A stretch of 64,000 nt of DNA from Desulfamplus sp. (GTDB lineage: Bacteria > Desulfobacterota > Desulfobacteria > Desulfobacterales > Desulfobacteraceae): assembly GCA_015232555.1 (NCBI GenBank), contig JADFZJ010000002.1, positions 1-64,000 of the forward strand, written 5' to 3'. Positions 23,961 through 27,033 of this stretch are shown in pieces. Every line of letters starts with the position of its first letter. The stretch's first letter is position 1. Made by a program: the position numbers and the translations under genes. A model generated the notes under the pieces. That model ran no database searches. It was not told where the DNA came from and was given only the letters and a program-made list of their open reading frames with translations.

Positions 23961-24644
23961 ATGAGACCAGAAGAGAAGATACGCGATCAAGAGACTATAG
24001 ATACAATTACACAACTTATTAATAACGGTGCTGAAAAGATGAGTGTAATCATGCGGCATTCAGATCGTTTTTATCACAAAGACACTGCAATGGAAGCATT
24101 CATGGGGCTTACTGAAAAGGGTAAGGAGTTTGCCATGAAACTTGGCTCCCAGCTTCCTGAAAGACCAAGACCACGCCTTTTTTCCAGCCCTTTTGGCAGA
24201 TGTATTGAGACAGCGTATCTGATTGACAAGGGATATATAAAAACCCACTGTGTTTTTAATGGTCACAACTCACAGGCAGTTGAGCTTTCACCCTTTTATA
24301 TCAAAGATATTCATAAGGCAATTGATCTGGTAAGGGATATTGGAAACGGCAATTTTTTGAGAAAGTGGTTTGACCGTGAAATTTCTGAAAACATTATGCT
24401 CAATCCTGAAATAGCAGCAGATACAATAGCAGATTTTATGGTCAAACAGATTTCTGCTATTGACGATGGTGAAATCGCAATCTGTGTCTCCCATGACTGG
24501 AATCTATTTCCGTTAAAAGAGTATAAACTCGGACTTCCGCACGAAGATTATGGCTCAGTTGGCTATCTTGAAAGCGTAATTGTTTTTGAAAAAGAGGGAA
24601 AGAACTATATTGCCAACTATCAGAAAGAACCAATTCCATTATGA
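23961..24644 (+). CDS. Histidine phosphatase superfamily protein
   Basis: VIMRHSDRFY (RHG-like), LFSSPFGRCIETA, second-half His in CVSHDWNLFPL. Confidence 0.75.
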   Translation: MRPEEKIRDQETIDTITQLINNGAEKMSVIMRHSDRFYHKDTAMEAFMGLTEKGKEFAMKLGSQLPERPRPRLFSSPFGRCIETAYLIDKGYIKTHCVFNGHNSQAVELSPFYIKDIHKAIDLVRDIGNGNFLRKWFDREISENIMLNPEIAADTIADFMVKQISAIDDGEIAICVSHDWNLFPLKEYKLGLPHEDYGSVGYLESVIVFEKEGKNYIANYQKEPIPL

Positions 24645-24839
24645 TGATATAAGAACCGATTCCATTATCATCTTTTTTTATTTAAACTTCTTGACATTGA
24701 AAATTCAATATGCAATTTTTATTAAAAATATAAAACACAATGTATCAAATGAGTCGGAGTTTGTGGTGTTTGTTTTCAATTTAAAAAAAGTAAGAAGTTA
24801 AAAAGAAGTAATAAGTTATACTTTTAAGGTAATTTTACA

Positions 24840-24914
24840 ATGGTTAAAGAAAATCAACATAACAGCTTTTTTATATTTGGACGCTTCTTTTTTAGAAGCG
24901 TCCATCCGGTATAG
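24840..24914 (+). CDS. Phe-rich attenuation leader peptide, 24 aa
   Basis: ATG...TAG encodes MVKENQHNSFFIFGRFFFRSVHPV with 6 Phe codons; AAGG about 10 nt upstream; located directly in the leader of the DAHPS-prephenate dehydratase gene. Below the length cut-off of the ORF track. Confidence 0.8.
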   Translation: MVKENQHNSFFIFGRFFFRSVHPV

Positions 24915-25030
24915 GTACGCACACTTAATAAAGATTGCGATCATACCCTGGATGGACTTTAAAGTCTGTCCAGGGTTTTTTATTTTTAATGCCCTGGAAG
25001 CAGCACCGCTTTCAGGGCATTTTTATTTTT
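24879..25030 (+). promoter_or_regulatory. Transcription attenuator with two tandem terminators and mutually exclusive antiterminator pairings
   Basis: 1:2 GGACGCTTCT/AGAAGCGTCC; 3:4 ACCCTGGATGGACTTTAAAGTCTGTCCAGGGT + T6ATTTTT; 5:6 ATGCCCTGGAAGC/GCTTTCAGGGCAT + TTTTATTTTT; alternatives 2:3 GTCCATCCGGTAT with ATACC-CT-GGATGGAC and 4:5 TCCAGGG with CCCTGGA. Confidence 0.8.
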
Positions 25031-25065: not shown

Positions 25066-27033
25066 ATGATTTTGGTATTAGAAAAAGAGATTACACAGGT
25101 AAAAAAGAGTCAGCTCAAAAGTATTTTAGCTGAAAAAGGGTGCATGGTTCATGAACAAGAGGGGGGGGTACAGAATATTCTTGGCGTTATTGGAAGAAAG
25201 AGCCTGACCAAGGAGTTTCTTATGTCTCTTGAGGGGGTCGCCGATGTGGTGCCCATATCGACAGCCTACAAGTTGGTCAGCAGGCAGATGAAGCAAGATG
25301 ATACCATTATCAGAATCGGAAATGTGGAGATAGGAGGCAACAAGCTCACCATTATTGCAGGACCCTGTGCTGTTGAGAGCCGTGAGCAAGCAATGATAAT
25401 TGCAAAAGAGGTTAAAAAATATGGTGCTACATTGTTTCGGGGTGGTGCGTTCAAGCCGAGATCATCGCCATATTCGTTTCAGGGTCTTGAAGAGGAGGGA
25501 CTCAGGATTTTGGCTGAAGTTCGTGAGGTGACAGGATTGCGTGTAGTTACCGAAATAACCTCTCCTATGTATGCTGATCTGATGATGAAATATGTTGATA
25601 TTATTCAAATTGGTGCAAGAAACATGCAAAATTTTGAGCTTCTCAAATGTGCAGGCAGAATGGGTAAACCTGTGATTCTTAAGCGTGGGCTGGCATCTAC
25701 CATTGAGGAATGGCTTATGTCTGCTGAGTACATTGCAGCCGAAGGAAACCAAAATATCATTTTGTGTGAACGTGGTATAAGAACCTTTGAACCATACACC
25801 AGAAACACACTTGATCTGTCAGCCATACCAGTACTTAAACAGTTGACCCATCTGCCTGTAATCATTGATCCAAGCCATGCAACTGGTATCAGAGAGAAGG
25901 TAAGCCCAATGGCAAGAGCTGCAATCGCCGCGGGTGCTGACGGCTTGATGATTGAGGTTCACCACAAGCCTGAAGAGGCTCTCTCTGATGGTCCTCAAAG
26001 TCTGTATCCCAAACAATTCGGAAGGCTTATCCGAGATATTTATGTTATTGCACCAGTTGTTGGCAAGCAGCTTATTCATGATTATACAGGATACAGTGCT
26101 GAAAATTATGATTCATTATCATCAAGATATCAACTATCAGCAGGGGGCACTGGAACAGCAGAATCAGAAAATTCGAGACAAGAGAAACGTGTGGTCTATC
26201 TTGGAGAGCAGGGAACATTCAGCCACAAAGCAGCTATTCAATATTTCAGCAGTGATGTTGAAAGTTACCCTGTCCCGTCATTTCGTGATATTTTTGAAGA
26301 GGTAAAAAGCGGGGCTGCCGATTTTGGCATGATTCCAATTGAGAATTCTCTTGCTGGAAGTATCCATGAAAACTATGACCTGCTGCTTGAATATAAGTTG
26401 TTTATTACAGGAGAGTTATCTATTCGTATTATCCATAATCTGATTGCTCACAAAGATAGCAGATTGGAAGATATAAAACAGGTTTTTGCACCGCCCCCAG
26501 CTTTAAATCAGTGTAGAAGATTTTTAAATGCAAATCCTGATATCCGACTTGTTCCTGTCAATGCAACTGCAAGTGCTGTGAAATCTGTGGCAGAATCAGG
26601 AACTCTTGAAGATGCTGCAATTGGAAGCGTTGAAGCTGCCGCACTTTTTGGAATGACAGTTCTTGAAGAGGCTATTGAGGATAATCCCAGAAATTTCACC
26701 CGTTTTGTGATTATTGAACGGCAGATGCTCAATGATGAGCTAAAAAGCAACGCATCACTTATAAAGTCATCAGTTGTATTTTCAACATCCAACAAACCGG
26801 GTTCTCTGTTTGAGGTTATGAAGGTCTTTTCAGAAAACCAGATAAACCTTGTGAAACTTGAATCAAGACCGATTCATGGCAAACCTTGGCAGTACATGTT
26901 TTATGCTGATCTTGAAACAGATTTAACGAACAGCAGTGCTGATGGTGTGATAAAAGCAATTAAACAGAACACAGAATTTTTCAGGATTCTTGGAAGCTAT
27001 AACTGTGGTAAAAAGGGGAGTGACTCAATTTAA
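25066..27033 (+). CDS. Fused 3-deoxy-7-phosphoheptulonate synthase - prephenate dehydratase (with ACT domain)
   Basis: DAHPS: IIAGPCAVESREQAM, ATLFRGGAFKPRSSPYSFQG, PVIIDPSHATGIRE. PDT: VVYLGEQGTFSHKAA, MIPIENSLAGSIHENYDLL, NFTRFVII; ACT domain: KPGSLFEVMKVFSENQINLVKLESRPIHGKPWQYMFYAD. Confidence 0.93.
   Translation: MILVLEKEITQVKKSQLKSILAEKGCMVHEQEGGVQNILGVIGRKSLTKEFLMSLEGVADVVPISTAYKLVSRQMKQDDTIIRIGNVEIGGNKLTIIAGPCAVESREQAMIIAKEVKKYGATLFRGGAFKPRSSPYSFQGLEEEGLRILAEVREVTGLRVVTEITSPMYADLMMKYVDIIQIGARNMQNFELLKCAGRMGKPVILKRGLASTIEEWLMSAEYIAAEGNQNIILCERGIRTFEPYTRNTLDLSAIPVLKQLTHLPVIIDPSHATGIREKVSPMARAAIAAGADGLMIEVHHKPEEALSDGPQSLYPKQFGRLIRDIYVIAPVVGKQLIHDYTGYSAENYDSLSSRYQLSAGGTGTAESENSRQEKRVVYLGEQGTFSHKAAIQYFSSDVESYPVPSFRDIFEEVKSGAADFGMIPIENSLAGSIHENYDLLLEYKLFITGELSIRIIHNLIAHKDSRLEDIKQVFAPPPALNQCRRFLNANPDIRLVPVNATASAVKSVAESGTLEDAAIGSVEAAALFGMTVLEEAIEDNPRNFTRFVIIERQMLNDELKSNASLIKSSVVFSTSNKPGSLFEVMKVFSENQINLVKLESRPIHGKPWQYMFYADLETDLTNSSADGVIKAIKQNTEFFRILGSYNCGKKGSDSI

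Follow-up and report, generated by a model that had tools for sequence, protein, structure and literature searches.

The window considered here, a 64,000-nucleotide stretch of Desulfamplus sp. DNA, contains a gene for a DAHP synthase (DAHPS) fused to a prephenate dehydratase (PDT), and upstream of it lies a very short, phenylalanine-rich open reading frame. The locus raises the question of whether this frame is the leader peptide of an attenuator, as the original prediction proposed, and if so, how its translation could decide whether the gene is transcribed. Judged from comparative sequence data, the answer at which we arrive, with a probability of roughly 0.83, is a ribosome-mediated Phe attenuator with a six-segment relay, in which helices 1:2, 3:4 and 5:6 would terminate transcription and helices 2:3 and 4:5 would let it read through (Table 1).

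Table 1. Coordinates of the leader element and the regulated gene in the window
Feature	Position	Strand	Remarks
Putative promoter	24691-24719	+	TTGACA 24691-24696, 17-nt spacer, weak -10 AATTTT 24714-24719
AAGG, possible Shine-Dalgarno of leader peptide	24826-24829	+	10 nt before ATG; by eye, weak
Phe leader peptide ORF, MVKENQHNSFFIFGRFFFRSVHPV	24840-24914	+	stop TAG 24912-24914; unannotated; 24 codons, 6 Phe
Hairpin 1:2	24879-24903	+	24879-24887 with 24895-24903; -18.8 kcal/mol; compensatory changes
Control codons Phe16-Phe18 (TTC TTT TTT)	24885-24893	+	read from sequence, kept in relatives
Antiterminator 2:3	24900-24957	+	core 24900-24909 with 24948-24957; -27.0 kcal/mol; further pairs extend helix in window
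Terminator T1 (helix 3:4, 24945-24976) and U-tract	24945-24987	+	-23.2 kcal/mol
Relay helix 4:5	24969-24998	+	UCCAGGG 24969-24975 with CCCUGGA 24992-24998; T1 3' arm with T2 5' arm
Terminator T2 (helix 5:6, 24988-25021) and U-tract	24988-25029	+	
Regulated gene, DAHP synthase (FXD + DAHP_synth_1) fused to prephenate dehydratase (PDT + ACT)	25066-27033	+	655 aa

The features named in the original prediction were found where it had placed them. The sequence of the ORF with its six Phe codons was confirmed, AAGG is present upstream, and the FFF codons do lie in the 5' arm and loop of the first hairpin, with TTC (F16) in the arm and TTT TTT in the loop. The downstream gene is likewise the one proposed, and it also carries a ferredoxin-like domain and an ACT domain. 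The limits that had been given are those of the ORF and fall short of the full element, which extends from the putative promoter at 24691 to the end of the second terminator at 25029; similarly, the hairpin reading was correct for the first hairpin and overlooked both T2 and relay helix 4:5.

Several lines of evidence argue that the reading frame is genuine. Among the 657 ATG-started ORFs of 15-40 codons on both strands of the window, no other has both six or more Phe codons and an FFF run. Related leaders were gathered upstream of the same fusion gene, found in many genomes by a GTDB genome scan and a family scan. The Phe codons, whose absence from relatives had been named beforehand as evidence against a leader peptide, are kept in all 55 distinct leaders, as is the core of the peptide, FGRFFF(F)RSVHPV with slight variants. 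In the same 55 leaders, the distance from the arm of the first hairpin to the stop codon is 33, 36, 39, 42 or 48 nt, always a multiple of three, and the stop codon differs at the same place (TAG in 29, TGA in 17 and TAA in 9). The short Phe-rich ORF is, by these comparisons, under coding constraint. It is very probably translated, since RNA structure alone would not keep insertions and deletions in multiples of three, and it is almost certainly real as described, serving as the leader peptide of a Phe attenuator.

A transcription start at about 24726 is predicted from the putative promoter, which has a TG at 24711-24712 within its spacer and a weak, candidate -10 element (AATTTT). In 107 of 117 relatives, a TTGACA occurs within the 260 nt that precede the leader, compared to a mean of about 8 in shuffled sequence, and this disfavours a start downstream of 24840, the other finding that had been named as evidence against the leader peptide. 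The same data bear on a very different explanation, namely that the hairpins terminate transcription of the gene upstream (23961-24644), with the Phe-rich ORF having arisen by chance in U-rich DNA. That gene does run in the same direction, its end is some 200 nt from the ORF, and the region is indeed U-rich. However, the frame-preserving indels, the three stop codons, the conservation both of the peptide and of the TTGACA ahead of the leader, and the order-wide association with Phe genes leave this explanation with next to no probability.

The RNA structures expected of an attenuator are also present. The control codons overlap segment 1 (arm 1 and loop), the stop codon at 24912 adjoins segment 2 (24900-24909), and 1:2, 2:3 and T1 are mutually exclusive in the expected manner. 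In a 32-sequence alignment, 98.4% of the cells of helix 2:3 are paired and three pairs show two-sided changes; when the register is shifted, pairing falls to 28-60%. The helix is also stronger with its real partners than with partners from other clusters (permutation p<=2e-4). Covariation extends to 1:2 and 3:4, which together show 24 two-sided cells versus 6 in the shuffled control; antiterminator and terminator both covary. Helices 1:2, 2:3 and 3:4 are supported by these compensatory changes.

Two further explanations assign the ORF or its codons a lesser role. The conservation of RSVHPV in the C-terminal part of the peptide might indicate direct action of the peptide, through stalling as a nascent chain or in trans, and not via its Phe codons. 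Yet the N-terminal half is variable among relatives and the RSVHPV part encodes segment 2, so that its conservation is explained by the pairing of its RNA, and we regard direct action of the peptide as very improbable. Similarly little credence can be given to control of T1 and T2 by a metabolite riboswitch or a protein-binding leader in which the ORF is incidental: terminator motifs with two hairpins, for example the Rfam trpB motif, do score weakly against this region (41.4 bits, with a gathering cut-off of 59), but there is no conserved aptamer-like region, the stretch from the leader stop codon to T1 is variable among relatives, and the coding constraint on the ORF is strong.

T1 and T2 occur as tandem terminator-like hairpins in 55 of 55 leaders. 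Helix 4:5, which joins them, excludes 5:6 and thereby supplies the second alternative helix of a six-segment arrangement. Cognate 4:5 pairing exceeds that with T2 arms taken from other clusters (p 0.001-0.008), and amounts to -17.8 kcal/mol versus -11.0 kcal/mol with 38 unrelated terminators, a background purged of reverse-strand T1 copies and of relatives' T2; in the case of the window's own 4:5, two of the 38 unrelated terminators pair equally well. The second pair of the helix is C-G in 34 and T-A in 13 of 64 clusters, versus C-A in 6 and T-G in 3 (Fisher p 5e-6). The T1 partner of the switching position is usually a conserved G, and hence T1 passes to a G-U pair where 4:5 stays Watson-Crick. 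In likelihood tests on the single best DAHPS domain tree, many branches of which are weakly supported, the second pair shows correlated evolution (LR 32.2, p 1.7e-6) and the next pair is weakly correlated (p 0.03), whereas mis-registered control pairs give no significant correlation (p 0.15-0.41). A strict independent-pairs test on the supported branches alone comprises too few pairs to have any power. The helix has seven pairs in the window and contains a mismatch in some relatives (e.g. L018 and L020). Overall, these comparisons support a helix 4:5 linking T1 and T2.

The observations on T2 and 4:5 are the ones that bear on a simpler model, in which a standard four-segment Phe attenuator (1:2, 2:3, 3:4) is followed by T2 as an independent, fixed backup and 4:5 has no role. 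This model accounts fully for the leader, T1 and 2:3, and it is in keeping with the good T1 U-tract found in the window and most relatives. However, a fixed T2 would keep the gene down in all states, and 4:5 covaries on the tree whereas the control pairs do not. In addition, eight rows (L019, L042, L161, L162, L164, L168, L223 and L224) have a U-tract at T2 alone, and we consider the four-segment model unlikely. More generally, T1 is followed by at most three U in the next 8 bases in ten rows, which represent about nine lineages (L019, L042/L209, L161, L162, L164, L168, L222, L223 and L224) and 6 changes on the tree. The U-tract of T2 is kept in nearly all leaders and is weak in L222; some low T2 counts come from hairpins drawn across their own U-tract, and the counts leave out the low-scoring phylum matches L163, L165-L167 and L169-L172 as well as the unregistered L218. 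Control must reach T2 in the lineages with a U-poor T1, because only T2 has a U-tract there.

The six-segment relay would operate as follows. When Phe-tRNA is plentiful, the ribosome would reach the stop codon and cover segment 2, allowing 3:4 to form T1 and 5:6 to form T2, and transcription would end before the DAHPS-PDT gene. When Phe-tRNA is scarce, the ribosome would stall at Phe16-18 and cover segment 1; segment 2 would then pair with segment 3, opening T1, and the freed segment 4 would pair with segment 5, opening T2, so that the gene would be transcribed. Translation of the leader, stalling on its Phe codons and the actual termination and read-through are what we infer from the conserved features described above. 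A folding path was computed from equilibrium energies of growing transcripts, which do not represent kinetics. For a ribosome positioned at the Phe codons, which leaves the RNA free from 24900, the predicted minimum is 2:3 up to 24972, T1 is better than 2:3 by about 2.5-3 kcal/mol between 24976 and 24988 even though the ribosome is stalled, and the combination of 2:3 and 4:5 is the minimum again from 24998 to 25012, with segment 1 covered. For a ribosome that has reached the stop codon, T1 and then T2 are predicted to fold. At full length, T1 plus T2 is more stable than 2:3 plus 4:5 (-53.7 vs -44.9), and read-through must therefore be kinetic, as in other attenuators.

A covariance model built from 1:2 and T1 detects one convincing copy in the same genome (E 9e-17), has matches in 128 of the 292 genomes that represent the order (E<=0.01), and yields few convincing copies elsewhere in the phylum. 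A second match in the same genome (G000:C39:488, E 0.0016) lacks both such a leader and a DAHPS gene, and resembles an ordinary terminator. The element nearly always precedes DAHP synthase and/or prephenate dehydratase genes, i.e. genes for biosynthesis of the amino acid whose codons the leader carries. The gene sets vary, and include the DAHPS-PDT fusion, DAHPS followed by chorismate mutase-prephenate dehydratase, CM-PDT (this DAHPS being a second type without the N-terminal domain), an ACT-pair protein with DAHPS, and CM-PDT alone, arguing that the leader tracks the Phe pathway and not one gene. This Phe-gene context, along with the conservation and covariation, supports the reading of the ORF as a Phe-rich leader peptide.

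Some loci depart from the usual arrangement. The leader is absent before the Spirochaete fusions (L023-L035 and L048) and at two Desulfamplus loci that are close relatives of the window gene (L005 and L006), implying that it is dispensable; at L006, another coding gene lies directly upstream. The leader precedes a small ACT-pair protein in L138 (PF19571), L141 and L191, with DAHPS next in the latter two. At eleven loci (L139, L149, L185, L189, L191, L192, L199, L203, L206, L210 and L211), the same leader stands before a distant DAHPS type that has no ferredoxin-like domain and is separated by a deep split in the tree, which suggests either that the gene was replaced while its leader stayed in place or that the leader itself was transferred.

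Among the closest known systems is the E. coli pheA leader, which encodes a Phe-rich peptide and controls a prephenate dehydratase gene by attenuation. The original prediction invoked this leader, and the comparison holds for the Phe-rich peptide ahead of a prephenate dehydratase gene and for the mechanism, but not for family membership: in a search with all 4227 Rfam models, no leader family scored above its gathering threshold, and E values up to 10 gave sub-threshold matches only. The element studied here also differs from pheA in its DAHPS-PDT fusion and its two coupled terminators. The pheA leader is itself listed as an attenuator (PMC1183508). In topology, the closer likeness is to the his attenuator of E. 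coli and Salmonella, where stems AB, CD and EF alternate with BC and DE (PMC10989985) and the extra hairpin is thought, according to a published model, to reduce leakage (PMC1183508). Both systems have six segments, the same alternation of helices and a leader peptide in which regulatory codons form a run (PMC10989985, PMC1183508), but Phe is sensed here instead of His, the sequence family and genes are different, and 3:4 is a terminator with a U-tract in most species. A U-run after the last hairpin (EF) only, as in the his form, is seen here in about nine lineages alone; because T1 has its U-tract in the window and most relatives, the element is his-like in topology and is not classed as a his form.

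Other leaders share single features with the element. The uORFC-13-1 motif has a Phe-codon uORF before a DAHP synthase gene (aroF, Acholeplasma) and a terminator downstream, but comes from unrelated bacteria and is represented by 24 sequences, with one terminator stem and no pairing relay described (PMC8632094). The rimP leader has tandem terminators and a potential antiterminator, but precedes another gene and has no described Phe leader peptide (PMC2965389). The mgtCBR leader of Salmonella also carries more than one attenuation element, but with two separate ORFs and signals, whereas here one ORF would drive two linked terminators (PMC3641672). The sub-threshold trpB motif (RF04312) consists of two hairpins, the last being a terminator, and belongs to Firmicutes/Fusobacteria with no Phe ORF described (PMC11109978). 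No earlier report of the element was found among the openly accessible papers on Deltaproteobacteria, tandem terminators and leader peptides. The element is a new family of the classical attenuation mechanism, not a new mechanism. We give about even odds to the broader proposal of an undescribed relay-attenuator family across Desulfobacterales, with one leader peptide opening two chained terminators and a codon box that was perhaps retuned in evolution. The element represents an RNA family that Rfam does not contain, and it supplies a concrete mechanism, open to testing, by which the sulfate reducers of this order could control Phe synthesis and in which the double terminator may lower leakage. 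It also offers a natural series for attenuator evolution, with gain and loss of the T1 U-tract and control codons that move among Phe, Tyr and Trp.

Such changes in the codon box were seen in several groups. The f31 genomes have Trp codons there (FFCFWWF and similar; L216, L217, L222 and L224), four of five g3 genomes have a Tyr codon (L103-L106), and in L158-L160, too, the Phe codon box includes Tyr or Trp codons. A single DAHPS of this type was found in the f31 and the Tyr-bearing g3 genomes, whereas most all-Phe leaders occur in genomes with two; the f74 genomes are an exception, with W/Y in the leader yet two or three DAHPS genes. Retuning of the box to Trp or Tyr where there is one DAHPS of this type is a lead and not a result, given the few independent events. 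The genome of the window itself has a second, monofunctional DAHPS (L002, contig C73), which is without the Trp leader found in the family's other genera. That leader, with Trp-containing runs such as WRWW, precedes the monofunctional DAHPS paralogue in L108, L109, L114-L118, L120 and L123. Its N-terminus, M(M)FLY[TI]ETN/K, is strongly conserved with synonymous variation and lies far from the Trp codons, and most leaders of this group also have tandem terminators.
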